Source: Oscillatoria sp.
Lineage (GTDB): Bacteria; Cyanobacteriota; Cyanobacteriia; Cyanobacteriales; Laspinemataceae
DNA: 64,000 nt
Assembly: GCA_011390515.1 (NCBI GenBank)
Contig: JAABSJ010000005.1
Location: 1 to 64,000 of the forward strand
Direction of reading: 5' to 3'
Part shown: one piece after another, positions 12,901-52,311 of the stretch
Numbering within the stretch: position 1 is the first letter of the stretch
Layout: every line of letters starts with the position of its first letter
Made by a program: the position numbers and the translations under genes
The notes under the pieces: model-generated
Databases searched by the model: none
What the model saw: only the letters and a program-made list of their open reading frames with translations
What the model was told of the DNA's origin: nothing

Positions 12901-15118
12901 TGCGAAATCGATTTTCACTCTCGCGCAGGGCCTCTTCGGCTTGTTTGCGTTCGGTGATATCCCGGCAGGTATAAAGCAGGGTTCCCCCTTCGATCGCCAC
13001 TTGTTTGACGCTCACCAGTAAGGTCCTGGGGTTTCCCTTTTTATCCAGGATGGTCCGTTCCAGGTTGTGAATTTCCCCGAAAAGCTCCAGTTCTTCCCCC
13101 TCAAATAGGTGATCCCCGAGTAGGTGGCTAATGTGGCCCCATTGTTGGGCTTCTTCTACGGAATAGTCACAGATGAAGCGGACTGCGGGACTGATATAGG
13201 TCAGCGCCCCATTGCGATCGGTGATAAACACAGCTTCGGAGATATTGCTCAGGGTGATCCGGTGGAGTTCCTCACTGGCGCGTAAGGCGGCCTCCATCCG
13301 CTTGCGATCGCTCAAATCCCGGGCCACAGTGAGCAGGGTTAAGATGCCATTTTTTTCGCATAAGGGGGTAGCGGCTAATTCCACGGGCACGATGGTCCCA
13401 TCAACGCGCAAAAACTGTTGTTCGATAAAGGGAACGGCTTGATGTTCGGTTAAAATCTGCTCAATTCGTTCCTCCACCAGGGCGCGTTTGTCGGGATGCA
13501 CAAAATTCAGGACGGGTAACCCCACCAAGGCTTCTGGGCTGGTGGCCCCGAGGAGTTTGGCTCCGGCTGTGTTAATAAAGTCGATTTTGCCCCCACTGTG
13601 GACAATAATGGCTTCTGGGGAGAGTTCAACTAACCGACGGTAACGCTCTTCGCTTTTGGCGAGGGCGGATTCGGCCCTTTGGCGTTCGGCGCGATCGCGC
13701 AGGGCGACGATGCCGTAGGCGAGGTCATTGGCGAGTTCTCCTAAGAGTTCCACTTCGGCAATATCAAAGGCATTGGCGGTTCCTGAATAAATCCGCAGGG
13801 AACCAAAGGTTTTGTTTTTGCCAATCAGGGGGAGGGCAATGGTGGAGTGCAACCCTTGGTTGAGGGCTAATTCTCGCCAGGGGGCAAAACTGGGTTCGGT
13901 TTGGATATTTTGCACCAAGCAACATTTACCCGTCTGAATGCAGGTGCGGGTCATGCCTTTAAATTCTGGGTTCGGTTTCCAGGATGCCTGGAGTTGTTGT
14001 AAATAGTCCCCGGCATCTCCGGCGAAGGCGGCAGGTTGCAGGGGGCGTTGGTGCCCCGATTGCGCCGCTTCTTCCGCTTCAGATAGGGCGACCCAAGCCA
14101 GTCGATAGCCCCCGGTTTCGACGATGATCCGGCAGATCTCGTGGAGGAGTTCGGATTCTTCCTGAGCACGGACCATGACTTGATTGCATTCCCATATCGT
14201 GGTGAGGGCGCGGTTGAGGGAACAGAGTTCCATTTCTACGGCTTTGCGATCGCTCAGATCATGGGCAATTACGGAAAATCCCACTAATTGTCCTTGAGTG
14301 TCTTGCAATGCCGAGAGGGTGATATTGGCCCAAAACCGGGTTCCATTCCGTCGCCTGCGCCATCCTTCATCTTCACATTGTCCAGCGGTGGCTACGAGTT
14401 GGAGTTCTTGCTGGGGTTTGCCCGTGGCAATATCTTCTTGGGGATAAAAACAGGAGAAGTGATTGCCGATAATCTCAGCAGAGGAATAACCGAGCAGTCT
14501 CTGTGCGCCGCGATTCCAACTGGCAATCCTTCCCCTGGAATCCAGCAGAAAAATGGCGTAGTCACGGATTTCTTCGACAAAGGCGCGGAAGAGTTGATCG
14601 TTTTGTTGCAGGTGTCGTTGTAAATGGGGGCTGTGGGCAGTGGAGGGTTCCCCTGGGTTGGGGGGATGGGCCGCCCAGAGGGACGGGGACTCGCGATGGT
14701 TAACTCGGACTCTGGTGCTTAAGAGTTTTTCGACTCTCCAGAAGAGTTCCTCGGGCTGGATCGGGGCGGCGATCGCATCGTCATATCTCCTGACTCCCAG
14801 GGTTGGCTCCCGGGTTGCGCTTTCTTCCGCTTCTCGGTGGGATTGCAAAATATCCCACTCTCCAGGATGAATGACCAACAATAGGGGAAAATCCCGAGGT
14901 GGGGAGGGGTTTCCCCATTCCCAAGACCCCCGGTAAGCCTCCAACCCGAGGCGATCGCCAATGCATAAATCTAGGCCATTCCAGGGGGGATGCGCTTCCC
15001 CCGTCACCCCCTCCACCAGGGTTGACTCTCCCGTTATAACTTGGTAATGTTGCCCTAACTGCTGGATGAGCAGGTGACGGGTTTGTTGTTCCTCGATTAG
15101 GAGCAAAATACAGTTCAT
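9950..15118 (-). CDS. multi-PAS/GAF sensor histidine kinase
   Basis: A 1722-residue, apparently soluble sensor kinase; no transmembrane segment is obvious. Order: a degenerate receiver-like N-terminus (about 1-120), PAS1 (about 175-290), a GAF domain (about 310-480), PAS2-PAS4 (about 490-860), a coiled linker (about 865-900), PAS5-PAS8 (about 905-1415), HisKA with the phospho-acceptor H1430 in VSHELRTPL, and HATPase_c (about 1530-1655) with N box NLLSNALKF, G1 DQGRGIP, F box FERFQQ and G2 GGTGLGLAI. Eight PAS-PAC modules are counted from their ends, such as DLSDRK, DITERK and DVTERK. The last 70 residues are low complexity. It probably signals to the CheY-like protein at 7777-8157. Confidence 0.95.
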   Translation of the reverse strand: MNCILLLIEEQQTRHLLIQQLGQHYQVITGESTLVEGVTGEAHPPWNGLDLCIGDRLGLEAYRGSWEWGNPSPPRDFPLLLVIHPGEWDILQSHREAEESATREPTLGVRRYDDAIAAPIQPEELFWRVEKLLSTRVRVNHRESPSLWAAHPPNPGEPSTAHSPHLQRHLQQNDQLFRAFVEEIRDYAIFLLDSRGRIASWNRGAQRLLGYSSAEIIGNHFSCFYPQEDIATGKPQQELQLVATAGQCEDEGWRRRRNGTRFWANITLSALQDTQGQLVGFSVIAHDLSDRKAVEMELCSLNRALTTIWECNQVMVRAQEESELLHEICRIIVETGGYRLAWVALSEAEEAAQSGHQRPLQPAAFAGDAGDYLQQLQASWKPNPEFKGMTRTCIQTGKCCLVQNIQTEPSFAPWRELALNQGLHSTIALPLIGKNKTFGSLRIYSGTANAFDIAEVELLGELANDLAYGIVALRDRAERQRAESALAKSEERYRRLVELSPEAIIVHSGGKIDFINTAGAKLLGATSPEALVGLPVLNFVHPDKRALVEERIEQILTEHQAVPFIEQQFLRVDGTIVPVELAATPLCEKNGILTLLTVARDLSDRKRMEAALRASEELHRITLSNISEAVFITDRNGALTYISPAVRFICDYSVEEAQQWGHISHLLGDHLFEGEELELFGEIHNLERTILDKKGNPRTLLVSVKQVAIEGGTLLYTCRDITERKQAEEALRESENRFRTTFEGAAIGMKITDLEGRFLQTNPALQGMLGYSQAQLCDFCFDSITYPEDLPTSRQLFQELLAGERDRYQLEKRYIHAQGHCVWVRLSVSSMRDTQNCWQFAIGLVEDITERKQAEEELRLYRNHLEELVAERTAELQRINARLRTEISRREQAQQALIRVTQAVESTSDAVLTIDITGQAIYHNRAFLDLFECTVEELNQAGGLPSLFADSSLGQEVFNLIHQGNSWSSEVLMRGRTPRSFVLPLGIDHNPVNTISIWLRADAVTDENNQRVGSICVLTDITDRKQTEAALRESEEQLRTLINAMPDAICFKDGRGAWLEANQAMLKVFDMGDLDYQGKTDAEIAELNSFYRDAFLECERSDEEAWKDMILSHKEEVIPVPDGSEVILDTLKVPLFHSDGSRKGLVVIGRDVTERKQVEEERLRLASIVESSDDAIIGKTLDGMILSWNAGAQRIYGYTAEEVKGRSISILILPNRQESELRLLEGILQGSSIDHYETVHLKKEGSPIYVSLTISPIKDAAGRITGVSTIARDVTDLKRVEDSLERLRHQNELILNSAGEGICGMDILGNTTFINPAATKMLGYSMGELLGAPLTMILGANFLPEEVGDPRDGGEDYLGPPLYAAIADGSVHHGTAVFWRKDGTSFPVEYITTPIQEQNEIKGAVLTFKDITERQGVERMKDEFISVVSHELRTPLTSIRGSLGLLANGLLESYPEKAGRMLQIAVSNTDRLVRLINDILDLERIQSGKVTMVEQYCNAADLTISAADAMRTMADKAGVTICVNPIPVQLWADPDRIFQVLTNLLSNALKFSPEGGQVWLSASLTSARSPDFLDSSIPEVLFQIKDQGRGIPRDKLETIFERFQQVDASDSRKKGGTGLGLAICRSIVEHHGGQIWVESVVGEGSSFYFTLPVDRQNPDSGEENSDFARSATPGPGIALESGDRQEEGLTQDHPGPSDHNPRAHSATPLPLVEEIAPFQLRS

Positions 15119-15924
15119 AATTCACCCTAGTGCTTGCAGCTCCGTCTATCATGATGGTTCATCACAGTGTCGGAGTATGGAGCGTTCTTCGGCAGATGGC
15201 TTCCCCTCGCTTCCTCTCTACCCCTGTTGGTTTTTGGTCTATAGAAGTTCTTTCACCCTTGGATCCGGTGCGATTTCCTTGGTGCTGTTTCCTGGCCCAA
15301 ATTGCTCGGTGTTCACCCCTGGGCGATCGGGCTTTTGAGTGCTGGGGTTTGGGTTAACCCCTGATCTATATCTTCCGAATCTTTCCTTAATTAAATAGAT
15401 GTCTCTATATATTTAGCTTAAATCATTCCTGTGGGGTGAATCGCAAATCACCCCTACATTTTTTCTTCAAAGAGAGGGGCGCAGAATTTTCCAATGGATT
15501 TACAGGGGCGATCGCTCTATCTTAAGGATGAAATTCGCCACTTTCAGCCCGAAGTCGGGGCTATGTATTTTTACCGATGGGTGCTATTTAGTGGGTTAAG
15601 TTTTGATAAGTTTTGATAAGTTCAAAAGGGAGTATGTAAATTGTTGGTTCTTTAGCTGTTTATTAATTTAGAGTAATTTCTAATCCCTGCTTTGTCAAGT
15701 CATCCCTCCTCTGCGGATTAGCCCCGTTGATGTTTTTCCACAACCGCTGATCGGAGGCGCTATCCCTGTCACCTCACCGTTAAGGGGTTCGCATGTTCTG
15801 CAGATTGTTAATTTTTATAAAAATATGTAGATTTTTTTTCGGTTTCCCTGGCCTAATTGCAAGGTTAGACCCCCTACTATGGGGGCAGGGGGCCAGTCCC
15901 AAAGAGTAGAAAAACCTCCTAAAA
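15119..15924. other. 0.8-kb intergenic region, no gene seen
   Basis: It lies upstream of the large kinase gene and downstream of the carboxypeptidase gene. I see no ORF with family resemblance. A direct repeat of TTTTGATAAG occurs at about 15600-15618, and a CCCCTACTATGGGGG inverted repeat near 15869-15885. The kinase promoter should lie at the left end. Confidence 0.4.
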
Positions 15925-17442
15925 TTAGCAGCGTTCCAATCGCGTCAACAACACCACAATTTCATCGATCGCCGCTCTTAACATGGCCGAGGATTGGTCC
16001 GATTGATTGACCAGAATGCTAAACAACACCGTATCATATTCCGAATTGGGAACATACCCAGATAACCCCGATACCCCCGTTAACGTCCCCGTTTTCGCCC
16101 GGACCGTTTGCGCTGCTGGAGTATTCCGAAACCGAGTCCGCAATGTACCACTCACCCCCGCTAAAGGTAACGCCTCCCGGTAAATCTCAAAATAAGGAGA
16201 ACCCGCCATCCCTCGCAGGGTTTGCACCAAGGATTCAGGACTGACGAGGTTCCGGCGAGAGAGTCCAGAAGCATCCACTAAATCGTAACTGGTCGGATCG
16301 ACTCCTAACTCGGTTAAAGTGGCTTTTAAGACTTGTAAACCCGCCTCCCGAGTCTCTTCCGGCAGGGGATTGTTGCCTTTACCTTGGGGATTCGCCCCGA
16401 GCGATCGCAACAAAACCTCTGTATAAAGATTATTGCTTCTCTGCAAGACTTGAACCGTCAGTTCCGATAAAGGCGGTGAGACGATCGCCGCTAATTCTTG
16501 CTGATTCGGCATATTCCGAAAGTGGTCACTCACCATTTCCCGTCCCGTGGTAATCCCCACCCCATTCAACGCTTGGCGGAAATACCCTAAAAAGTTTTGG
16601 GCGGGTTCTGCAACAGAAATTGAAACATCTTCTGCCGGTGAACCGACGTGCAACTGACCCGAGACTCGCACAATCGGTCGCGTAAACTCTCTCCCCACCT
16701 CCAAAAATTCTCGCGAATCCGTGGAAACCGTCCTGGACCGATTCTCAATTTGCCATCGGGTTTGTTCCATTGGATTTGCCCAAGTTACCGATAACGGTTG
16801 TCCTAATCCCTGGGGAGTTAAGGTAAAATCAACGCTATTTTGATTAAAAATCAGACTGTTGACGGGAGCACCATATCCCGCCTGGACATCTTCCCATTCC
16901 CAGTTAGGATGCACAGGAGACCCGATGAAATAACTATCTTCCCCGATCAGTTCCCCCACTTGCCGGATACCTTGTTGCTGCAATTGTTCGGCGATCGCCT
17001 CTAACTGAGTTTTCCCAATCGTCGGGTCACCCCGTCCCACAATCCGCAGAGAATCAATCCGGTCCCCAGTGGGATTAGAACCATAAACCGACGTGCGAAT
17101 CCGAAAGTCGGGACCGAGATGCTGTAACGCTGCCGCACTTGTGAGCAATTTAGCAGTCGATGCCGGAATAAAAAACTGCTCAGAATCCCGACTGTAAAGC
17201 GTGCGATCGCCTCGGATATCCAACGTTTCCACCAGAATACCCCACCGGGCGCGCCGCAACTGAGGACGATTAACAATCCCGGCGATCGTCGATTCCAACT
17301 GCGATTGACAAAACCGCTGGGGTGGCGGGGGTGAGGTTTGTCCCTTCACCGGAGACGGCACACTAACCAACATCAGCATCAACCCCAGCAGATTCAAGGA
17401 TTTCAGAGATTTGTAAAAGCGAGCGATCGGCAATCTCAACAT
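15925..17442 (-). CDS. dacB: D-alanyl-D-alanine carboxypeptidase/endopeptidase, PBP4 type (S13)
   Basis: A penicillin-binding protein that trims or cleaves peptidoglycan cross-links in the periplasm. The three active-site motifs are present: STAK (S95-K98 from the chosen start), SNN in QRSNNLYTE, and KTG in RAKTGTLTG. A long insertion domain between the first two motifs is typical of S13. The ATG at 17442 gives a basic n-region followed by LNLLGLMLMLVSVPS, a plausible signal peptide. An in-frame ATG at 17481 and a longer frame to 17589 exist, and no candidate has a clear ribosome site, so the start is uncertain. The mature protein is about 470 residues, normal for the family. Confidence 0.93.
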   Translation of the reverse strand: MLRLPIARFYKSLKSLNLLGLMLMLVSVPSPVKGQTSPPPPQRFCQSQLESTIAGIVNRPQLRRARWGILVETLDIRGDRTLYSRDSEQFFIPASTAKLLTSAAALQHLGPDFRIRTSVYGSNPTGDRIDSLRIVGRGDPTIGKTQLEAIAEQLQQQGIRQVGELIGEDSYFIGSPVHPNWEWEDVQAGYGAPVNSLIFNQNSVDFTLTPQGLGQPLSVTWANPMEQTRWQIENRSRTVSTDSREFLEVGREFTRPIVRVSGQLHVGSPAEDVSISVAEPAQNFLGYFRQALNGVGITTGREMVSDHFRNMPNQQELAAIVSPPLSELTVQVLQRSNNLYTEVLLRSLGANPQGKGNNPLPEETREAGLQVLKATLTELGVDPTSYDLVDASGLSRRNLVSPESLVQTLRGMAGSPYFEIYREALPLAGVSGTLRTRFRNTPAAQTVRAKTGTLTGVSGLSGYVPNSEYDTVLFSILVNQSDQSSAMLRAAIDEIVVLLTRLERC

Positions 17443-17756
17443 AAGCAGAAACCACAGTCCAAATAAACAACAGTAAATCATCAGCAAAGCGCGCACCCCC
17501 AGGAAAAAGCGCCCCTTCCCAAGAATCCAAACGCCGGGGTATTCACCCGATTTAACCCCCAATCCGGGAGACCCCTTCTCTACCCCCAAGGATTCTACCA
17601 GTTCCCCAATGTTCGTAGTAACAACTTCAGTCGTTCTCTTTTCTTAGTTCGTAGTAACGCCTTCAGGCGTTCTCTTAGTTCGTAGTAACGACTTCAGTCG
17701 TTCCGGATTGTTCGTAGTAACGACTTCAGTCGTTTCGGATTGTTCGTAGTAACGAC

Positions 17757-17936
17757 ATCTTGCATCATTATCAACACCGGCGGGGGATAAATCCCCCGCC
17801 TCATAGCTAAAGTCGGTTAAAACCGACTGAAAACACCACGGGATAAGACTTATAGTCGGTTTCAACCGACTTGAGCTGTTAGGCGGGGGATTTATCCCCC
17901 GCCGGTTGTTGCAACTCGTGCAAGATTTCGGTAGTA
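17757..17936. repeat. 180-bp hairpin element (family E, copy 2)
   Basis: Outer arms ATCTTGCA and TGCAAGAT enclose three nested stems: CGGCGGGGGATAAATCCCCCGCC, then AAAGTCGGTTAAAACCGACT, a variable centre, AGTCGGTTTCAACCGACTT and GGCGGGGGATTTATCCCCCGCC. The whole unit could fold into one long cruciform. A second copy lies at 56747-56939. It interrupts the GTAGTAACGAC repeat array, which continues on both sides. Confidence 0.85.
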
Positions 17937-17944
17937 ACGACTTC

Positions 17945-18066
17945 ATACCAAATCCGATTGGTAAAAGTCGGTTTTCGCTTTTAGCCCGCGCAGGCGGGCT
18001 TCGTCCGTATAGCCCCAGGCTTGAGCCTGCGGGTTTTAACAGACCTTTGACAACCGGATTCCGTAT
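17945..18066. mobile_element. 122-bp MITE-like element (family D, copy 1)
   Basis: It starts ATACCAAATCCG and ends CGGATTCCGTAT, so the termini are imperfect inverted repeats. Inside are two GC-rich stems (AGCCCGCGCAGGCGGGCT, and CCCCAGGCTTGAGCCTGCGGG). It splits one GTAGTAACGACTTC/AGTCGTTC repeat unit; removing it restores the unit apart from one C. The reverse-oriented copy at 54517-54638 has exactly the same length. Confidence 0.8.
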
Positions 18067-18315
18067 CAGTCGTTCCAGATTGTTTGTAGTCACCACATCA
18101 GTCGTTCTCCAAGTTCGTAGTAACAACTTCAGTCGTTCCGGATTGTTCGTAGTAACAACTTCAGTCGTTCCCTTCTCTACAGGTGCGGTAATTAACACTC
18201 ACCCCATACCCAAAACCGAACTCAACCCTCCGCCCAACTTAGATATATTAATTCCAGAAAGAGGTAAGCAATTCAAACCTCAACCCAACACTAATTCTTA
18301 AAGAGGTAACCCACT

Positions 18316-18756
18316 ATGGCACTCATTCGTTACTCCCCCTTCCGGGAAATTGACAGCTTACAACGAGAAATGAACCGCTTATTTGACACAATTTCTTCCG
18401 CCCCCGAAACTGAAAATGGCGGATTGACCTTCGTTCCTCCTGCGGAAATCTCCGAAACCAGCGATGCCATTCACTTAAACCTAGAAATTCCCGGCATGGA
18501 ACCCGAGAACTTCGATGTCCAAGTCACCGCCGAATCCGTCGCTATTAGTGGAGAACGCCACTCCCAAACTCGCACCGAACAACAAGGCATGACCCGCAGC
18601 GAATTTCGCTATGGTCAATTCCGCCGCGTCATTCCCCTCCCCGCCCGTGTGAAAAATACCGAAGTGCAGGCGGAATACAAAAATGGCATTCTCCAACTCA
18701 ATTTACCCAAAGCAGAAGAGGAGAAAAACAAAGTCGTTAAAGTCAACATTGGCTAG
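18316..18756 (+). CDS. hspA: Hsp20/alpha-crystallin small heat-shock protein
   Basis: A 146-residue cytoplasmic ATP-independent chaperone that holds unfolding proteins. The N-terminus ALIRYSPFREIDSLQREMNRLFD is typical of class A cyanobacterial Hsp20. The alpha-crystallin domain runs about 42-132, with the family signature RVIPLPARVK and the GILQLNLPKAE C-terminal strand; the usual C-terminal I/L-x-I/V tail is represented by VVKVNIG. AGAGG lies 9 bases before the ATG. It is the first gene after the repeat array and is followed, after 311 bases of repeats, by an HtrA-type protease, so the two form a protein-quality-control pair by position. Heat regulation is expected for the family, but no operator is visible. 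Confidence 0.96.
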   Translation: MALIRYSPFREIDSLQREMNRLFDTISSAPETENGGLTFVPPAEISETSDAIHLNLEIPGMEPENFDVQVTAESVAISGERHSQTRTEQQGMTRSEFRYGQFRRVIPLPARVKNTEVQAEYKNGILQLNLPKAEEEKNKVVKVNIG

Positions 18757-18799
18757 AATCGGTTCTGACCTTTATTCCAGAAGAAAACCGGGCTATCAA

Positions 18800-18920
18800 G
18801 AAATAACCCCTGAAGAGGTTACTACAAACCTTCGGAGTGACTCCTTGATTGAGTCAAAAAAATGCTAACCCCTGAAGGGGTTACTACAAACCTTCGTAGT
18901 GACTCCTTCACCGAGTCATC
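18800..18920. repeat. two copies of a repeat with GAAGGGGTTACTACAAACCTTC core
   Basis: The motif AACCCCTGAAGNGGTTACTACAAACCTTCGNAGTGACTCCTT occurs twice in tandem (about 18804-18851 and 18872-18915), each followed by GAGTCA. It is a relative of the GTAGTAACGAC repeat family in inverted orientation. It fills most of the 311-base gap between hspA and the protease gene. Confidence 0.75.
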
Positions 18921-19067
18921 TTGAGCCAAAATAATGCGACTTTTCTATCTCCAGAGGATGGTGAGTGCAGCCGAGTTCGATTACAGTGGAAGCAGGGGAG
19001 AGTGATGGGGTAACCCGTCGCCTCCTCAATTTTCCCTAAACTCTACGGACGGATATAAATAATAACG

Positions 19068-20282
19068 ATGTCGTTTTCTAAATTTTGTGCGAATGGGCGA
19101 ACCCTTATCACTTATTTATTAATGGGGATTTGGAGTGCGATCGCCTGGTTAAACCCCCTCGGGTCACTCTCGGCGGCAGCAACTCCCTTATCTGCGGTGA
19201 ATTCCCTCCCTGCCAACCCAGTAACGGTGGCCCTCCAACCCAAGCAAAACCAGGGAACTGGAGGCAACTTTGTCACCGCAGCAGTGGATCTCGTCGGACC
19301 CTCCGTGGTCCGCCTGAATACCGAAAGGACGATCGCCCGTCGGGATGACCCATTTTTTAATGATTCCTTATTCCGAGAGTTTTTCGGACCGGATGTGCCA
19401 GTCCCCCAGCAAGAAGAACTCCTGCGGGGTCAGGGTTCGGGTTTCATTATCGACGGTGACGGGTTAATTCTCACTAATGCTCATGTGGTCAGTGATGCCG
19501 ATCGCGTCACCGTCACCTTAAAAGATGGTCGCACATTCGAGGGGGAAGTGCGCGGAACTGATGCCGTCACCGATTTAGCTGTAGTCAAAATTGATGACCC
19601 CGGCGAACAATTACCCGTTGCACCGTTGGGAGATTCCTCACAAGTGCGCGTGGGAGATTGGGCGATCGCCGTCGGCAATCCCTTTGGGTTAGATAATACC
19701 GTCACATTAGGGATTATTAGCACCTTAGAGCGATCGTCCTCCCAAGTCGGCATCCCCGATAAACGAGTAGACTTTTTACAAACCGACGCCGCCATCAATC
19801 CTGGCAACTCCGGCGGTCCCCTGTTGAACGATCGCGGTCAAGTCATCGGCATAAACACCGCCATTCGTCCCAATGCCAGAGGGATTGGATTTGCCATTCC
19901 CATCAACAAAGCCAAAGCCCTCACTGATACATTAGCCCGAGGTGAGACCGTCACCCATCCCTTTATCGGGATTCAGATGGTCACCTTAACCCCGGACTTA
20001 GCGCGCCAAAACAATCAGGACCGTAATTCCACCTTAATCGTCCCGGAAATCAATGGCGTGTTAGTGATGCGAGTCTTGCGAGATTCCCCCGCAGAAGCGG
20101 CCAGATTGCGCCTTGGAGATGCGATCGTGGCCGTAGATGGCACCCCCATCACCAGCGCCGACCAATTGCAGCGTATCGTCGAAAATAGCGGCATCAATCG
20201 CGACCTCCGTCTCACGGTTCAACGTGGCCCTCAAACCCTAGAACTCACCGTGAGAACCGCTCAACTGAGCAATACTCGGTGA
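19068..20282 (+). CDS. hhoA: HtrA/HhoA-type serine protease with PDZ domain
   Basis: A 404-residue trypsin-like protease for damaged envelope or lumenal proteins. It has an N-terminal signal or anchor (hydrophobic about 13-27, then SLSAAATPLSA). The catalytic domain is about 70-290, with the triad H139 (TNAHVV), D169 (TDLAVVKI) and S248 (GNSGGP). A single C-terminal PDZ domain (about 300-395) contains GVLVMRVLRDSPAEAARLRLGDAIVAVDG-type sequence. The architecture matches the cyanobacterial HhoA/HhoB/HtrA trio; which of the three it is cannot be decided without a tree. A GC-rich hairpin follows 18 bases after the stop. Confidence 0.95.
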   Translation: MSFSKFCANGRTLITYLLMGIWSAIAWLNPLGSLSAAATPLSAVNSLPANPVTVALQPKQNQGTGGNFVTAAVDLVGPSVVRLNTERTIARRDDPFFNDSLFREFFGPDVPVPQQEELLRGQGSGFIIDGDGLILTNAHVVSDADRVTVTLKDGRTFEGEVRGTDAVTDLAVVKIDDPGEQLPVAPLGDSSQVRVGDWAIAVGNPFGLDNTVTLGIISTLERSSSQVGIPDKRVDFLQTDAAINPGNSGGPLLNDRGQVIGINTAIRPNARGIGFAIPINKAKALTDTLARGETVTHPFIGIQMVTLTPDLARQNNQDRNSTLIVPEINGVLVMRVLRDSPAEAARLRLGDAIVAVDGTPITSADQLQRIVENSGINRDLRLTVQRGPQTLELTVRTAQLSNTR

Positions 20283-20299
20283 GAAATGACTGGCAACAC

Positions 20300-20324
20300 C
20301 CGGCGGGGAGCAATTCCCCGCCGG
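20300..20324. terminator. GC-rich hairpin downstream of the protease gene
   Basis: CCGGCGGGG (20300-20308) pairs with CCCCGCCGG (20316-20324) around a 7-base loop. There is no following T run, so it could be a repeat remnant related to the CGGCGGGG stems of family E rather than a terminator. Confidence 0.4.
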
Positions 20325-20350
20325 AGTAGAGAAGGGTGCTGTCTAGTTAT

Positions 20351-20446
20351 CTATCTCAACAAGTCATTAATATGGCAATATTCACAGAGTCCCTGAACAC
20401 GCTGTCTTACTTCAGATTGGATTTGTTCAGAAAGCCAAGGACGAGA
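20351..20446 (-). pseudogene. N-terminal remnant of an HNH endonuclease
   Basis: Reading the minus strand, this stretch encodes RPWLSEQIQSEVRQRVQGLCEYCH and then six more residues before TAG. The pattern RP, VRQRVQ and CEYCH is the start of many cyanobacterial HNH endonucleases, where CxxC opens the zinc-binding HNH fold. The rest of the domain is missing, so this is a truncated remnant. In related genomes, to my knowledge, such an HNH gene directly follows a gene like the one at 20642-20935. Here a 179-bp MITE with a 12-bp duplication has landed between them. Confidence 0.55.
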
Positions 20447-20457
20447 CCTTTTAAGTG

Positions 20458-20636
20458 TAGCCCTGTCAAGGTGTATTTGTAGGGGCGTATTGCATACGCC
20501 CTAGGGCGCTTCTCGTTTCGCCCCTACAATTCACAACGATGAGGGATTCAATTGACTGTTAAAGAGGGCGTATGCAATACGCCCCTACAATAAACAACGA
20601 TTTTTCGTCATGCAATTTACCACCTTGACAGGGCTA
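20458..20636. mobile_element. MITE family A, copy 1 (179 bp, perfect 12-bp target duplication)
   Basis: The left end TAGCCCTGTCAAGGTG and right end CACCTTGACAGGGCTA are inverted repeats. The 12 bases ACCTTTTAAGTG flank it exactly on both sides (20446-20457 and 20637-20648), which is direct evidence of insertion with a 12-bp target-site duplication. The interior carries GTAGGGGCGTATTGCATACGCCC and its inverse. There is no coding capacity. A stop codon of the neighbouring gene lies within the duplicated target, so that gene keeps its natural end. Confidence 0.93.
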
Positions 20637-20641
20637 ACCTT

Positions 20642-20935
20642 TTAAGTGTTGATGGAAGGCTGATGAGAATTGGGGAGGGCAAGATTCCGAATCGTGCGAT
20701 TTACAAAACTTAAATAATCATCAATTTCCTCATAAGCATCTAACTCCTGTTCCTCCAATTCTGTTAACCCCTCACTCTGTTGTTTCTCCAGTAAAGTAGC
20801 AATCCGAGAGGTCACCTGATTTGAGGCTCTAAAAATGGGAATTCCCCCTTCTAGCTCAATTCGCACCGCTCCTTCTAGGGGTAAGGAAGCGGGTAAACCA
20901 TTTAAAGGGGGTAGGGGAGAAGGGGATACAGTCAT
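20642..20935 (-). CDS. small protein of a two-gene module with an HNH endonuclease
   Basis: Ninety-seven residues, acidic in the C-terminal half, with VRIELEGGIPIFRAS, RIATLLEKQQSEGLTELEEQELD and YEEIDDYLSFVNRTIRNL. I recognise this as the cyanobacterial type found just upstream of HNH endonuclease genes; its role (partner or antitoxin) is not established to my knowledge. The 3' neighbour here is only an HNH remnant, separated by the MITE. The helical YEEIDDYLSF region recalls small antitoxin-like proteins, but no DNA-binding motif is evident. Confidence 0.7.
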   Translation of the reverse strand: MTVSPSPLPPLNGLPASLPLEGAVRIELEGGIPIFRASNQVTSRIATLLEKQQSEGLTELEEQELDAYEEIDDYLSFVNRTIRNLALPNSHQPSINT

Positions 20936-21113
20936 AACTTGTCAGAGTGGGCCCTGGGTTTAGTTCGGTTCAGCTATTCACTCAAGGGTTGATGCCATTA
21001 TAGTCAAGTTCCGAAAAACCGGGTTGCTCTGAATATCTGGGTGAGGATGCAAAATTCCTGACAGAAACCCGGTTTCTTGGCTTCCTGCCTATCTAGGAAT
21101 TAGTCAGGATTGC

Positions 21114-21275
21114 CTAGGGGAGGGGTTCAGAGAGTTCAATGGGCATAAAATAGGCGATCGCATAGAGATAATCTTCCCCTGAGTCATCAATGACCCGAAT
21201 CATTGGATGGCGATCGGCTTTTGAGTCGGGTAAGACTTGATAAATCTTGCGAACTTCTAGAGAGGCTGCATAACT
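21114..21275 (-). pseudogene. 5'-truncated small conserved cyanobacterial protein
   Basis: The minus strand is open for 53 codons ending at TAG (21114), reading LEVRKIYQVLPD, then MIRVIDDSGEDYLY and FMPIELSEPLP. I recognise LEVRKIYQVLPD and RVIDxSGEDYLYP as a conserved short cyanobacterial protein of unknown function. There is no in-frame start: TAA lies directly upstream (21276-21278), and an ATG at 21271 is out of frame by two bases next to a CTCT dinucleotide repeat. It abuts the stop codon of the Mrr gene, so the 5' end was lost at that junction or by a small frameshift. Confidence 0.5.
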
Positions 21276-21286
21276 TTACGAGGTTT

Positions 21287-22147
21287 TTAAATTTTTTCAA
21301 ACCAAGCGGTATCAATTTCCACCGACTCAATCATCGTAATCTTAACCCCCAACCTCAATTCTTTCAACCGTTCAACTAATTGTTCACCATCAATTAAATC
21401 AATAGGTGGCGCACCATCTCGGGTTGCTTCCTTGACAGCATCTCGTGTAAATGTACCCGTAGTCACAAACAGTCCTTTATCGGTACGCCCTTGCATCGCT
21501 CCCCGAAAATCCCGAATCTGACCTGCCGTTACTGAACCTTGGTAACGCTTACATTGAAAGAGCACATGAAAGCTCAAGAAACCATTAATCCGCGCAATCC
21601 CTACCCCATCAATACCGCCATCACCAGATTTGCCGGTGACTTGCACTTGGATAAAACCGGATTCCCGGAGTAGACGTTGCACCAAACGCTCAAATGCGGC
21701 AGGTTCAAGGGCTAACAACATTTTGTGTAACTGCTGATGCCATTCGAGTTCTTCTGAGCTTTCCTCAATCGTTGCTAATATTGGATCTGAATCATCGACT
21801 TTGCTTTTTTCAATATCTCGAATGGCTTTGACAATTTCTTTGGGATCGAGGTGTTCAAAATCAGCATCGGTTGATAATAAGGACCACACCCCCCGTGCTG
21901 AATTTTCCAACAGTCCATATTTTTTCAAGTAGGTACGACTCCACGCGAGACGGTATTCAACTTCACTGGTGGAGGTTTTGCCATGAAGAATTTCTAGCAC
22001 TGGATCCGGCAGATTGAGAATTTGCACCACCTGCTCATAAATTTCTTGGACTGTGCCGGAACCCCCCAGATTTTTTAATGCATCCAGTGTGGGGATTAGC
22101 ATTGCATCAAATGTAGGTACGGAGGAGGGCAATCGTTTAACATTCAT
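21287..22147 (-). CDS. mrr: Mrr-family restriction endonuclease
   Basis: A 286-residue type IV-like restriction enzyme, expected to cut modified DNA. The N-terminal winged-helix Mrr_N domain (about 8-95, with VPTFDAMLIPTLDALK and SRTYLKKYGLLE) recognises DNA. The C-terminal PD-(D/E)xK domain (about 148-260) shows FERLVQRLLRESGF, the catalytic GDGGIDG and FQCKRY, then AGQIRDFRGAM. All expected catalytic residues are present, so it is probably active. A 107-residue gene lies 132 bases upstream on the same strand and may be co-transcribed. Confidence 0.93.
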   Translation of the reverse strand: MNVKRLPSSVPTFDAMLIPTLDALKNLGGSGTVQEIYEQVVQILNLPDPVLEILHGKTSTSEVEYRLAWSRTYLKKYGLLENSARGVWSLLSTDADFEHLDPKEIVKAIRDIEKSKVDDSDPILATIEESSEELEWHQQLHKMLLALEPAAFERLVQRLLRESGFIQVQVTGKSGDGGIDGVGIARINGFLSFHVLFQCKRYQGSVTAGQIRDFRGAMQGRTDKGLFVTTGTFTRDAVKEATRDGAPPIDLIDGEQLVERLKELRLGVKITMIESVEIDTAWFEKI

Positions 22148-22279
22148 AATTATCAGAGATTAGATTTTGAGTAAAGTGCAAAATCCGGCTTATGAAAAAT
22201 GAGGACCAGCAGTTAGTTCGTCAGAGATACTTCGATTTTGTATCCCAATAAATGATACATAATTTACTAAAAGACACAA

Positions 22280-22603
22280 TCAGTAAACAGTTTTCTGTTC
22301 ATTTCCCCATCCCTCTTGAGGGGTGACCGTTCCCTCAAGCTCCGGAACTCGTTTGACTCGAAAAACAATCCTCTCTTTCATCCTCCCAACTCCTTCTGTA
22401 TCAAAACAGTAAAAGCCGATAATAATCCCCCCGAAAAATGCCGGTTCTTTCTGACCCCGGTGCAGATAAAGCTCACAGTCTATTAGCTCAAATGCTTTTT
22501 GACGTTTAACCGACCAGTATCCGGTTTCCCACTCATCTCGCTCTGGGTAAACTTGGGTTAATTTTCCGACGTGCTCTCGCTCAATCAAGTGAATTGCTTT
22601 CAT
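22280..22603 (-). CDS. small protein upstream of mrr, possibly PUA/EVE-like
   Basis: A 107-residue protein with WETGYWSVKRQKAFELIDCELYLH, then EPAFFGGIIIGFY and RIVFRVKRV. The pattern of GYW, YLH, FFGGxIxGF and IVFRVKR resembles small beta-barrel PUA/EVE-type domains seen next to modification-dependent nucleases, but I cannot name a family with confidence. The last residues (GWGNEQKTVY) look variable. It sits in an AT-rich neighbourhood upstream of mrr on the same strand, so a role with that nuclease is a reasonable guess. Confidence 0.6.
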   Translation of the reverse strand: MKAIHLIEREHVGKLTQVYPERDEWETGYWSVKRQKAFELIDCELYLHRGQKEPAFFGGIIIGFYCFDTEGVGRMKERIVFRVKRVPELEGTVTPQEGWGNEQKTVY

Positions 22604-22717
22604 GATTTTTTATCCTCAGTTCCCCTAAGTCATTAGGGAATATGGTATGGAACTATTATAGCATATTGTAGATTATTTCATGTCAAAAAATGAAATGTGG
22701 TAGCGGGTTAACCGGCA

Positions 22718-23626
22718 CTACAGCACTCCGATATCTTGCAAACACCTTCGAGTTAACTCTATCCTAGCGGCCCCATCTTCTGGCTTGTTTACATCAATAT
22801 TAGTTGCAAAAAAATAAGCGTTATCTCCGGTTTCTACAAACCCGACAAACCATCCAATATTTTGGAGCGATTCATTTCCATATCCAAACCAACCCGTTTT
22901 TGCTCGAATGGTGTAGTCGGGTGTTTGTTCATAAATCATAATCTCTTTGACTAGGGAAAGGGTCTGCTCAGAAAAGGGTAAATCGTTGTTGTAGAGACGG
23001 CGCAAAAATTGCACTTGCTGTTGGGGGGTGATTTGGAGGTTTCCCTGTAGCCAAAATTGGTCTATTTCTTCGGCTGTACCAATGTTTTGATTGCCATAAC
23101 CGACTTGGGTTATCCATTGCTGCATTCGCTCATATCCGATTCGGCGCGCTAACACTTGATAAAACCAGACGGCAGAGAGTTTAAAGGCTTCTTTCAGATT
23201 TAAGTCTCGATTCCAGGTGGAAATTGCTCGGGGAATTCCATCCCAGGTTAATACTGCTAATTCATTCGGAATGACGCCGGTTTCTAGGGCAATGAGAGAG
23301 TTGAGGATTTTAAAGGTTGAGGCGGTTGGGAAGGCGGTTTGATTGCGTTGGGGGTTATGTTGCCAGATGCGATCGCCATTTAATTCAGCAATGATTATTG
23401 AACCTTCAACTCCTAATTCTTGGAAATGTTGCCCAAAGTTAAGGTTCTGGGCAATCTCTTCAGAAACAAGAACCTCCTCCCTGGATTGTCCAAGGCTTGA
23501 TGCAGGTTTGATGTTGACTAAAACGGTAAAAAATAGACAGCTTAATGAAACAATAATGATTGGATTAGATGATTTTTTTACTCCTGTTATCTGTTTCTGA
23601 CTGGGGCTAAGATAGGACTTGCTCAT
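22718..23626 (-). CDS. class D (OXA-type) beta-lactamase family protein
   Basis: A 302-residue secreted serine hydrolase with all class D motifs: STFK (S103-K106), SAV (151-153), YGN (177-179) and KTGW (243-246). An N-terminal hydrophobic segment (about 22-38, NPIIIVSLSCLFFTVLV) serves as signal peptide or anchor. The ATG at 23626 was chosen because it gives a normal signal sequence; the open frame continues 45 codons further into a 40-bp palindrome and is unlikely to be coding there. It either hydrolyses beta-lactams or acts as a penicillin-sensing or binding protein. It stands alone, with no BlaR-like sensor or repressor next to it. Confidence 0.9.
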   Translation of the reverse strand: MSKSYLSPSQKQITGVKKSSNPIIIVSLSCLFFTVLVNIKPASSLGQSREEVLVSEEIAQNLNFGQHFQELGVEGSIIIAELNGDRIWQHNPQRNQTAFPTASTFKILNSLIALETGVIPNELAVLTWDGIPRAISTWNRDLNLKEAFKLSAVWFYQVLARRIGYERMQQWITQVGYGNQNIGTAEEIDQFWLQGNLQITPQQQVQFLRRLYNNDLPFSEQTLSLVKEIMIYEQTPDYTIRAKTGWFGYGNESLQNIGWFVGFVETGDNAYFFATNIDVNKPEDGAARIELTRRCLQDIGVL

Positions 23627-23642
23627 ATTTTGAGAATTCACC

Positions 23643-23682
23643 CTAAATGTAGAGGCGATTCGCGAATCGCCTCTACATTTAG
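23643..23682. repeat. perfect 40-bp palindrome upstream of the beta-lactamase gene
   Basis: CTAAATGTAGAGGCGATTCG followed by its exact reverse complement. The same palindrome, with two mismatched central bases, recurs at 60080-60119. It lies 17 bases upstream of the beta-lactamase start, so it falls in that gene's leader or promoter. Confidence 0.9.
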
Positions 23683-23780
23683 TATTTAATATTAAAGATT
23701 GCGCAAGTTCTGTAATATGGGATTTCATTAGGGCAAATTTCGATGAACTAAATTGATTCAAAATGATAGGGTTGGATAAT

Positions 23781-23896
23781 TAGCCTGAAGAGGGTTTGGA
23801 GACCAAACCCCTACATGATGCTGGAGGGTTTGGAGACCAAACCCCTACATGAAATAACGATTTTTCGTCGTTAAATTGGCCACTTTGACAGGGCTA
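23781..23896. mobile_element. MITE family A, copy 3 (old, 116 bp)
   Basis: The right end CCACTTTGACAGGGCTA matches family A and the left end TAGCCTGAAGAGG is a decayed version. The flanks GGGTTGGATAAT (23769-23780) and GGATTAGATGAT (23897-23908) agree at 9 of 12 positions, and all three differences are G/A transitions, as expected of an aged 12-bp duplication. The interior holds two copies of GGGTTTGGAGACCAAACCCCTACATGA rather than the GCATACGCC core of copies 1 and 2. Confidence 0.75.
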
Positions 23897-23945
23897 GGAT
23901 TAGATGATCTGACGCATATTAGAGGGCAATCAACTGGATAATGAA

Positions 23946-26783
23946 TTACTCATCATCAAAGACCCATCCTTCTTCTTCCGGCAATGTTTTGTCAGGGTCT
24001 AGGGACAGGGTTTCGGAAAAATTGGGGGTAAATTTGGGCTGGATTGCCTCAGTATTGGAGGAATTTGTTGGGAGACTTGCTGGTAAATAAACGGTGAAGG
24101 TTGAACCCTCTCCGAGGTTACTTTCTACGAACAAATCTCCGCCCATGAGTTGACAGAAACTGCGGGCTACGGCTAATCCTAATCCAGTACCCGCAGTATG
24201 ATGGATATCAGAGGTATGGATTTCACTAAATGGCTCAAATAGCTCTTGAATTTGTTCGGGGGTGATGCCGATGCCGTTGTCTCGGACTCGAAATGCGATC
24301 CATTCTTCGGTGGTTTCTAGTCCAGGTTTACTGAATTTGGAGTCGGTATTTAATACCCGGAAATCTGGGGTATCTTCTCGGGTAATTTCTAAGGCGATCG
24401 CCCCGTTTTCGGTAAACTTGGTGGCATTATCTAATAAGTGCCACAATACCTGCTGGAGTTTATGCCGATCGCTGGATATGGTCCCCCATTCTGCATCCCC
24501 TCCCATCGTCAAGGTATTATTATTCGTAATCAGCTTATGTTCAATTTCCGCCATAATCATGGCGATCGCCTCACCCACCTCGAAGCACTCCACATCCAGT
24601 TGCATCCGACCCAACTCAATCTTAGAATAATCCAAAATATCATCGATCGCCACCAACAAATCTTTCCCCGCTTTATTAATCTGCTGCAAATCCCCAAAGA
24701 AAGCCCGATTGCTGACCCCTAACTCTTTCGCATCTTCCTGCAACAAATCGCTATAGCTAATAATCGTCGTTAACGGCGTCCGCAATTCATGGCTCATATT
24801 GGCAAAAAATGCACTTTTACCCAAATTCGCGGCTTCTGCAGTCGCTTTAGCTCTTTGCAATTCCGTTTCAACTCGTTTGGTTTCCGTAATATCCCGGGCA
24901 AAAATGCAATTGTATTCTTTCCCCTTAATTTGGAAATAATTAATGGTAATTTCTACTGGAAAACTGTGATTATCCTTGGTCCGATGATGACATTCCAAAC
25001 GGACGGACCCAAATTCTTTAATTTCCTCCCAGTATTCCGGCCAGACTTCTGCGGGTAAATCGGGGTTGATATCATGAACACTCAGGGACAGCAGTTCTTT
25101 GCGGGAGTAGTTCAACGTGATGCAAGCGGCATCATTGACGTAGAAAAAGCGGCCATTAGGAGTCAGCCAAAATACCGAATCCGCTGCATTATTGATGGAA
25201 AATTCCAACACATCGCGGGTTTCTTCCAGGAGGCTGCGAGTGCGAATTTCCCCTTGCAATTGGCCGATCGCCTCGGTTAAATCCTTAGTGCGTTCGGCAA
25301 CGCGGGTTTCCAGTTCCTCATTGGCTTTTTGGAGTGCAGCTTCAGCCGCTTTGCGATCGGTAATATCAAATCCGATAAAGACTGCCGCCTGTCCCTGCTG
25401 ATATTTGTGAGACACTACCAAAAAGTGCCGATTCACCCCGCGAACAGTCATTTCAATTTCGTGCTGTGCTTCTTTTGCCGGATTATCAAAAAATTCCGGG
25501 ACCAGGTGGTTAAATTTGGGCGACCCCTTTAAAAAGCCGATTTTTTTGCCGAGGAAAGTCTCGGGATTGGCGCTAAAAGTTTTCGCTAAGTAGCCATTGA
25601 CCCCCAGATAAACTAAATCAGAACTAAACCAAGAAATGCTCCCGGGAACGGCATCTAAAACCGCTTGGAGTTGGTCGTTGGCGGATTCGAGTTCGGTTTG
25701 AGTTTTGATGCGATCGTGGGTTTCTAAGGCTAGGGCAGTATAATCAGCAATGGAAGCCGCAAAGTTCCGTTCTCCTAATTTCCACCTCCGGGGGATGCCG
25801 CGATGTTCACAGCAAACAATCCCGACGATTTTGCCACTAATGCGAATGGGTGCATCTAATTTGGAGGTAATGCCGAGGGGAATGAGGTAGGTATCGGCTA
25901 AATCTCGGGTTCTGGAATCGGTGATGGCATGATCGACGGAAATGGCACGTTCGGTTTCTAACGCTTGGAAGTATTGAGGATAGGGATCAGTCAGCAGCAT
26001 ACTGCCGGAGGTATGGAGGCGATCGGTGCGTTCGTAGAGATTGATACAGGTAATCTCAGTCTGGTGATTATCGTACAACCAGACTCCCACTCGTTCTACG
26101 GCGAGGGTATTGGCGGCAGCTTCGGTAATTTCAGCGATCGCCGCTTCTAAATTCCCCTCATTTTGGGTTTTGCTGCGTGCGAGTTCGACGAGAATCTGAC
26201 TTTGGCGACGCAAATCGCTTTCATCCGATCGCGATCGTCGGTGGGAATTCCTGGATACTTGGGGAGTGAACTGATGTAAGGGTTCTCCATTCCCTGGGGT
26301 CCTCCCTGTGGTTTCTCTCAACAGCAGCAACCCACCGATTTCACCCGTCTCGGTTTTCCAGGGATGCACCTCCCACTTGACTCGGAATGGGCGATCGCCA
26401 TCTGAACCCAACTCTTCTTCCCAGGATTGTACTCCCCCTGCCAAACAAACCGCTTGTACCTCTTTCCAGGATTCGAGGGAGAGGACTAAGTTTCTACTTC
26501 CTGCTTCCTCTGGGTTGTCGGTTGTCCGTTGGGTTGCGGTAAACCGAGGCAGGATTTCATAATGAGAACGACCTAGAATCGACTCAACGGGGAGAGTCGG
26601 AGTCTGGGTTGCTGCTGAGTCTGGGGAGTATCCCTGGCGATCGCGATCGTCGAAACCGCAATCTCGCAACCATTGGCGACTGGCAAACAAGTATCGCATC
26701 TGGCGATCGACCATCGCTATTGCCTGGGGAGTCTGTTCCAAAAATATCTTGAGCAGGTCGAAATTCTCTGGGGAGTACAACAT
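23946..26783 (-). CDS. PAS/GAF sensor histidine kinase
   Basis: A 945-residue soluble kinase. Domains: N-terminal PAS (about 10-160, EQTPQAIAMVDRQMRYLFAS), GAF (about 200-365), PAS (about 370-485), coiled coil (about 485-520), PAS-PAC (about 525-640), HisKA with H665 in NMSHELRTPL, and HATPase_c (about 755-905) with N box HLLDNATKF, G1 RDNGIGI, F box LFEPFSEI and G2 GTGLGLAVA. A 40-residue tail ends in acidic EEEGWVFDDE. There is no receiver domain, and no response-regulator gene is adjacent, so the partner is unknown. An inverted copy of a family D repeat lies just upstream. Confidence 0.95.
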   Translation of the reverse strand: MLYSPENFDLLKIFLEQTPQAIAMVDRQMRYLFASRQWLRDCGFDDRDRQGYSPDSAATQTPTLPVESILGRSHYEILPRFTATQRTTDNPEEAGSRNLVLSLESWKEVQAVCLAGGVQSWEEELGSDGDRPFRVKWEVHPWKTETGEIGGLLLLRETTGRTPGNGEPLHQFTPQVSRNSHRRSRSDESDLRRQSQILVELARSKTQNEGNLEAAIAEITEAAANTLAVERVGVWLYDNHQTEITCINLYERTDRLHTSGSMLLTDPYPQYFQALETERAISVDHAITDSRTRDLADTYLIPLGITSKLDAPIRISGKIVGIVCCEHRGIPRRWKLGERNFAASIADYTALALETHDRIKTQTELESANDQLQAVLDAVPGSISWFSSDLVYLGVNGYLAKTFSANPETFLGKKIGFLKGSPKFNHLVPEFFDNPAKEAQHEIEMTVRGVNRHFLVVSHKYQQGQAAVFIGFDITDRKAAEAALQKANEELETRVAERTKDLTEAIGQLQGEIRTRSLLEETRDVLEFSINNAADSVFWLTPNGRFFYVNDAACITLNYSRKELLSLSVHDINPDLPAEVWPEYWEEIKEFGSVRLECHHRTKDNHSFPVEITINYFQIKGKEYNCIFARDITETKRVETELQRAKATAEAANLGKSAFFANMSHELRTPLTTIISYSDLLQEDAKELGVSNRAFFGDLQQINKAGKDLLVAIDDILDYSKIELGRMQLDVECFEVGEAIAMIMAEIEHKLITNNNTLTMGGDAEWGTISSDRHKLQQVLWHLLDNATKFTENGAIALEITREDTPDFRVLNTDSKFSKPGLETTEEWIAFRVRDNGIGITPEQIQELFEPFSEIHTSDIHHTAGTGLGLAVARSFCQLMGGDLFVESNLGEGSTFTVYLPASLPTNSSNTEAIQPKFTPNFSETLSLDPDKTLPEEEGWVFDDE

Positions 26784-27499
26784 GAGGAAAGCTCCAACAA
26801 GTCGGCTATAAGGTTAAAGGAGCGATGAGGTACAGGCAATAGCTTGATTGTTAGGGTATGCCAACAAATAAATCCTCCAAATTTGATGCAATCGCACCTA
26901 ACAAGACTCTATTTAGCCCGCGCAGGCGGGCTTCGTCTGTGTAGCCCCACCCTTGAGGGTGCGGGTTGTTTGGATATTTTATTTTTTGGAGTTCCCTTAG
27001 CTACAGTGTTCAGCACCTGGAAATTAGGGCAGTTTTTCTGAGCTTCTGAGTCTGAGGAAAGCTGCACCTATTTTTGTTTTAGCAAGTTCTGGGGATTTTT
27101 ACATCTTTCGCCTCTTTACGGGTCCCTGGGTCAATGGGTGGGAGGGACCCACTTGCACCCTGGGGTTCATGGGAGCATCTGAAGTAAAAGGTCGCCCTCA
27201 CCCTAAATCCCTCTCCCTTTCAGGGGAGAGGGACTTTGAATCCGGCTCCCCTTCTCCCATTTTGGGAGAAGGGGTTGGGGGATGAGGGCCAACTGTCCAA
27301 ATTGAGATGCTCCCGGGTTCATGGCAGTTTGGATGCTAAACGGACCGGATTTGCGATCGGGGTTACAATAAAAACGTTACAGAACGCTACAGAATGGGTC
27401 CCTAACGTTAAGCTTTGTTGCAAAGCTAGACGTTTTGTAGAAGTAATGGTAACTTTTATTGGTATTGGACTTGACGCGAGTTGAGGTAAGGAGAACACT
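26784..27499. other. 0.7-kb intergenic region with repeat fragments
   Basis: It contains a partial family D repeat (26912-26969), a family C-like end (TTTTTTGGAGTTCCCTTAG at 26982-27001), a CCTCTCCCTTTCAGGGGAGAGGGA hairpin with TTCTCCCATTTTGGGAGAA next to it (about 27205-27270), and, close to the next gene, an AACGTTA/TAACGTT inverted repeat (27373-27409) followed by the small hairpin GCTTTGTTGCAAAGC (27412-27426). The last two may belong to the leader of the 27500 gene. Confidence 0.6.
26912..26969. repeat. family D fragment (copy 4)
   Basis: TTTAGCCCGCGCAGGCGGGCTTCGT, then GTAGCCCCACCCTTGAGGGTGCGGG, the central two stems of the family D element, without either terminal ATACC arm. It is probably a decayed copy. 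Confidence 0.65.
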
Positions 27500-38177: not shown

Positions 38178-38238
38178 AGGCGATTCGGATAGTATCACAT
38201 TTTTACCCTATTTTTATACTAAACTGGTTTTTAAAAGC

Positions 38239-38440
38239 TAGCCCTGTAAAGGTGTATTTGTAGGGGCGTATTGCATACGCCCTCTCATTTATGCAATACG
38301 CCCTCTCATTTATGCAATACGCCCCTACAAGAAACCCGGATGAGGCGGGATTCCATTGGCGGATAAAGAGGGCGTATGCAATACGCCCCTACAAGAAACC
38401 CGGATGAGGCGGGATTCGATTTACCACCTTGACAGGGCTA
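38239..38440. mobile_element. MITE family A, copy 2 (202 bp, perfect 12-bp target duplication)
   Basis: The left end TAGCCCTGTAAAGGTG and right end CCACCTTGACAGGGCTA are inverted. GTTTTTAAAAGC flanks it identically at 38227-38238 and 38441-38452. The interior has GTAGGGGCGTATTGCATACGCCC, a duplicated CTCTCATTTATGCAATACGCC unit and two copies of ACAAGAAACCCGGATGAGGCGGGATTC. It is non-coding. It lies between the 3' ends of two convergent STAND genes. Confidence 0.93.
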
Positions 38441-38510
38441 GTTTTTAAAAGCCCGTTTTCCCTTAGTCCGCGCCGAGAGTGTAGGGTTCTTCTAAAAACC
38501 CGATTCCATA

Positions 38511-52297: not shown

Positions 52298-52311
52298 CCT
52301 TGACAGGGCTA
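52298..52311. repeat. isolated right end of MITE family A
   Basis: CCTTGACAGGGCTA, the exact family A terminus, with another CAGGGCTAGG 10-20 bases upstream. It abuts the left end of a family B element at the shared TA. No matching left end was found, so it is a fragment. Confidence 0.6.

Follow-up and report, generated by a model that had tools for sequence, protein, structure and literature searches.

A cyanobacterial MITE family with 12-bp target-site duplications, its likely IS4-like transposase and its group II intron landing motif

We describe a family of miniature inverted-repeat elements (MITEs) from an Oscillatoria genome that is, very probably, both moved in trans by an IS4-like transposase whose own element has the same ends and used as a landing site by one lineage of group II introns. 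Several members of the family lie in the window, that is, the 64,000-nucleotide stretch of contig JAABSJ010000005.1 (Oscillatoria sp.) analysed here.

The element at 20458-20636 (plus strand) is a genuine MITE, one of dozens in this cyanobacterium. It is 179 bp long and non-coding, with no ORF of at least 80 aa inside it, and its terminal inverted repeats (TIRs) are perfect over 16 bp (TAGCCCTGTCAAGGTG at 20458-20473, plus strand; CACCTTGACAGGGCTA at 20621-20636, minus strand). Both ends are directly abutted by the target-site duplication ACCTTTTAAGTG, at 20446-20457 and 20637-20648, an exact 12-bp repeat expected by chance with a probability of about 6e-8 if equal base frequencies are assumed. 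The initial annotation had called a 179-bp MITE with a perfect 12-bp duplication here, and its coordinates proved exact; it was also right about the inverted repeats, but had given them two bp too few. In the interior, the palindromic arm TTGTAGGGGCGTATTGCATACGCCCT at 20477-20502 pairs perfectly over 26 nt with the arm at 20565-20590 (both plus strand), the whole element folding well above its own shuffles (z -12.1), and GTAG-tagged palindromes are found (GTAGGGGCG...CGCCCCTAC). A putative Deg/HtrA-like protease gene, named from its sequence (19068-20282), lies on one side, and a small minus-strand ORF (20642-20935) on the other. Since the right duplication provides the TAA stop codon of this ORF, its reading frame was left intact.

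A second closed copy, of 202 bp, is located at 38239-38440 (plus strand), between perfect 12-bp repeats GTTTTTAAAAGC at 38227-38238 and 38441-38452. The end pattern also matches at 23883-23896 (minus strand), the right end of a degenerate member whose left end is unrecognised, and at 52298-52311 (minus strand), an isolated end without partner. In line with the initial annotation, which had noted no transposase with these ends in the window, there is none among the ORFs of at least 80 aa in 15000-27000, and the end copies at 38239-38440, 23883 and 52298 enclose no transposase gene. Elsewhere in the window, isolated matches to Rfam CRISPR-DR28, barely above threshold, occur on the minus strand at 17982-18005 and 26914-26937; a similar match at L105:520-543, in the sister genome G005, suggests that they are probably a dispersed repeat and not a CRISPR.

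The 14-bp end, with at most one mismatch, occurs 102 times in the window's genome (G000, 376 contigs), against 3 occurrences of the reversed pattern. Among the regions fetched from this genome there are 28 closed copies, 124-330 bp in length. Of these, 17 are flanked by a 12-bp duplication that is perfect or one base off, compared with 3 of 756 swapped-flank pairs, in which left and right flanks were taken from different copies; in G005 the corresponding figures are 22 of 39 copies and 2 of 1,482 pairs. No duplication is recognisable in 8 of the 28 G000 copies. The duplicated target consists of a G, mixed bases, an AT core TTTAAA and a C, and it is preceded by G and followed by C. Exact 16-bp ends are present in 12 of the 39 genomes searched, while a comparison of the MITE with a plasmid collection gave no match.

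Empty sites bounded by the TIRs confirm the target-site duplication. In the sister species G002 the sequence around the 20446 site is continuous and contains a single target copy, ACATTTTAAGCG, 10/12 identical to ACCTTTTAAGTG; an empty site in a relative, which the initial annotation had proposed as a check, is thus available. Likewise, exactly one GTTTTTAAAAGC is found in G002 and in G007 at the place of the 38239-38440 copy. This second insertion is filled at the orthologous position in the sister species G003, although the flanks differ by about 7-10%. A perfect 12-bp repeat can therefore outlast speciation, and the term 'recent' should be used with caution: the perfection of the repeat, from which a recent transposition of the 20458-20636 copy had been concluded, does not by itself prove a very recent movement. 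The window copy shares 98% sequence identity with another copy in the same genome (C107:1920-2098) and also with a G005 copy, versus 93% identity between the adjacent end of the protease gene and its G005 counterpart, which fits a later spread of the subfamily to which the window copy belongs.

TIR-flanked units of 2.6-5.2 kb in G005 were considered as autonomous transposons and rejected as such; they are MITEs containing group II introns, with reverse transcriptase, maturase and HNH domains (Rfam RF00029). For one intron lineage of this genome (L105, L107, L108, L109 and L273-L281; n=14, one MITE carrying two introns), 14/14 junctions are situated inside MITE copies at GACGAA^AAAT, the caret marking the insertion point. 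The 5' exon reads TAAATTT[A/C]ATGACGAA (with an additional T in one case) and the 3' exon AAAT. The landing segment, AATGACGAA^AAATC, is near the right MITE end, and the segment TAAATTTAATGACGAA^AAATC includes the GACGAA core. For most junctions, the two MITE ends are found within about 300 bp. In the double-loaded MITE the two ends are common to the two introns, two loaded MITEs have a mutated end with flanking repeats still visible, and at L274 a good left end is paired with a right end that is only degenerate. As a control, related introns located elsewhere (L282, L283 and L289) are without MITE context. As for EBS1/EBS2 pairing with GACGAA, only weak candidates containing G-U pairs were found.

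The same association is seen in G000, where MITE-type sequence, at contig edges, precedes each of the 6 intron 5' ends found; in two of these cases the TIRs are degenerate. Six contigs of this assembly (C20, C38, C165, C178, C251 and C310; L254-L264) terminate within the same group II intron, so some of its breaks are due to MITE-borne introns. Next to a MITE-like end on C310 (L040:4700-5060) we also noticed tandem short repeats with units of approximately CCCCCTTAGATCCCCCTCCCGT and GAATAAATGTTTTATTACTGGGGGAGGCCAGAG. The MITE is independent of the intron, because in G003 the motif occurs 77 times unoccupied and this intron lineage occupies no copy of it. In the window copy, alignment to a split MITE of G005 places a candidate, unoccupied landing motif GACGAA^AAATC at 20604-20609 (minus strand) and puts the insertion point between 20604 and 20603. 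The core motif is present there, with neighbouring bases TTGCAT versus TTTAAT in the G005 consensus.

Did the intron enter these elements repeatedly, or only once? Introns are found at two homologous positions of a 189-bp MITE, and one MITE has both filled, so that several independent insertions are required. Furthermore, the exon sequences vary between loaded copies, and the same motif is used by another intron, of about 70% identity. These observations make it unlikely that the intron inserted only once and the loaded MITE then spread by DNA transposition as 2.7-kb copies, with no preference of the intron for the MITE, even though the introns of several loaded copies are almost identical (99.9%) and several of these copies have kept a perfect 12-bp duplication. 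Repeated entry at a preferred MITE motif remains our reading of these junctions.

The movement of the MITE itself calls for a transposase acting on the 16-bp ends. The initial annotation had recommended a search for full-length insertion sequences (IS) with such ends, and one is present in the sister strain Oscillatoria sp. HE19RPO (G003), at L135:186-2144. This IS is 1,959 bp long, both its 16-bp ends are identical to TAGCCCTGTCAAGGTG, and it is flanked by a perfect 12-bp duplication, GTTTTATCGCCC. Its transposase is encoded by a single 455-aa ORF without frameshift and matches PF01609 (DDE_Tnp_1) with 40.3 bits, above the cut-off of 23; its scores against NF033592 IS4 (95.8 bits, cut-off 115) and NF033591 (13.7 bits, cut-off 152) are below threshold. 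D133, D203 and E310 are invariant in the eight aligned sequences, and their D-69-D-106-E spacing falls within D(60-110)D(100-150)E. Y303, R306 and E310 of the YREK signature are conserved, and the K is lost: intact homologues have T or E at position 317 and in no case K, which leaves the full Y(2)R(3)E(6)K incomplete. The solved folds nearest to the transposase model, a low-confidence one (mean pLDDT 51), are those of Tn5 transposase, and a sequence search of the PDB gave no match. Homologues 54-64% identical occur in Nostoc, Lyngbya, Microcoleus and others, mostly with the same or similar ends, and the duplications that can be read among them measure 10-12 bp (Nostoc, Lyngbya and a Nostocaceae MAG).

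On these sequence characters we class the L135 element as IS4-like and assign it to no subgroup, given its IS4-type target duplication and its failure of the strict YREK signature. The 12-bp duplication, thought unusual at first, is normal for elements of this type, as IS4 subgroups generate duplications of 7-13 bp (10-12 for IS231, 10-13 for IS4; De Palmenaer et al. 2008, PMC2266710). Duplications of 4-6 bp are given for IS701, ISH3 and IS1634, families that were split off and lack the full YREK (PMC2266710). Compared by eye, the TAGCCCTGTCAAGG ends are outside all the subgroup end consensuses tabulated in PMC2266710.

In G000, the IS is represented by its first 583 bp, comprising the upstream region and first codons, at the edge of contig C325, and an IS end occurs in two further places, C242 and C81. 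The transposase gene was not found in the G000 assembly, plausibly through collapse of a multicopy sequence. A 52-aa ORF at the C325 edge was considered as the C-terminus of the transposase and rejected, since this spurious frame runs antisense across the upstream region of the IS. At 583 bp, this upstream region (L135:1562-2144 in G003) is unusually long, most homologues having about 80-220 bp. It contains a stem-loop around AAAAGGAGCC...GGCTCCTTTT and may have a regulatory function. A second copy of it, 91% identical, is found on G003 contig C336 (L134:4149-6135 and L134:6349-6942), near what appears by eye to be a broken IS66-type transposase set and without an intact IS4-like gene alongside.

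The MITE does not resemble the L135 IS beyond the 16-bp ends and is therefore not a simple deletion derivative of it. That the likeness is confined to these 16 bp, and that other PF01609 transposases are present in G000, could be taken to mean that a transposase of an unrelated family (IS1, IS5, IS630 or other), making 12-bp duplications by chance, moves the MITE. We consider this very improbable, as the IS that has identical ends and the same duplication length encodes an IS4-like transposase, and as the pairing of ends and transposase has been kept by homologues in distant cyanobacteria. The nine PF01609 loci of G000, examined as a source of the MITE, were rejected: 0/9 have recognisable ends of the MITE type on both sides.

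To our knowledge, Y1/HUH transposases generate no target duplications. It is hardly credible that the element is instead a REP/BIME-like cluster moved by a RAYT (Y1) transposase: although the GTAG-tagged palindromes of its interior resemble that class (PMC3733652), the 12-bp duplications and the empty sites are bounded by the 16-bp TIRs and not by the palindromes.

The IS4-like transposase thus remains the preferred agent, and the following course of events can be proposed. The DDE transposase of the IS4-like IS, presumably of the L135 type, would recognise the 16-bp MITE ends in trans, excise the MITE by cut-and-paste chemistry and join it to staggered breaks 12 bp apart. It would prefer a roughly palindromic target, GNNTTTAAANNC, immediately preceded by G and followed by C, and gap repair would then yield the 12-bp duplication. 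The intron lineage enters MITE copies at the landing segment described above, presumably by retrohoming, and disturbs neither their ends nor their 12-bp duplications. It is possible, and we advance it only tentatively, that the MITE family provides a set of homing sites spread by the transposase, into which the intron retrohomes, and that loaded MITEs of 2.7 kb in turn move as units, the DNA transposon and the retroelement hitchhiking on each other.

An abundant orphan repeat of cyanobacteria is now tied to a likely transposase, to its ends and to a target rule, so annotators can recognise it, and some of the breaks between contigs in draft genomes are explained by the family. If confirmed, the association with the intron would be a clean natural case of a retroelement surviving in non-coding sites that a DNA transposon provides. 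The role of a MITE as a transposon-borne homing site for introns appears undescribed so far; no paper joining retrohoming, group II intron and miniature inverted-repeat was returned by our literature search, which, covering few subscription papers, speaks only weakly for novelty.

In comparison with known systems, the partner IS resembles the IS231 and IS4 subgroups of the IS4 family in its single-ORF DDE transposase, the published spacing of the catalytic residues, the YRE residues and duplications of about one helix turn. It differs from the family in that none of the homologues examined has the K of YREK, its TAGCCC ends match no published subgroup consensus and its score against the NCBIfam IS4 model is below the cut-off. 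With cyanobacterial MITEs such as Nezha (cited in PMC10969869 and PMC3733652), the MITE shares the character of a short non-coding element with TIRs. Group II twintrons (reviewed in PMC4424553) offer a closer parallel for the intron, being cases where a mobile element offers a perpetual and harmless homing site to a group II intron; however, the host of a twintron is another group II intron, whereas here it is a transposase-dependent MITE. Finally, the 'MITEtron' of Thiomargarita (PMC4853749) also associates a MITE with a self-splicing intron, but in that case the MITE lies within a group I intron, while in the family described here group II introns lie within many copies of a MITE, at one motif.
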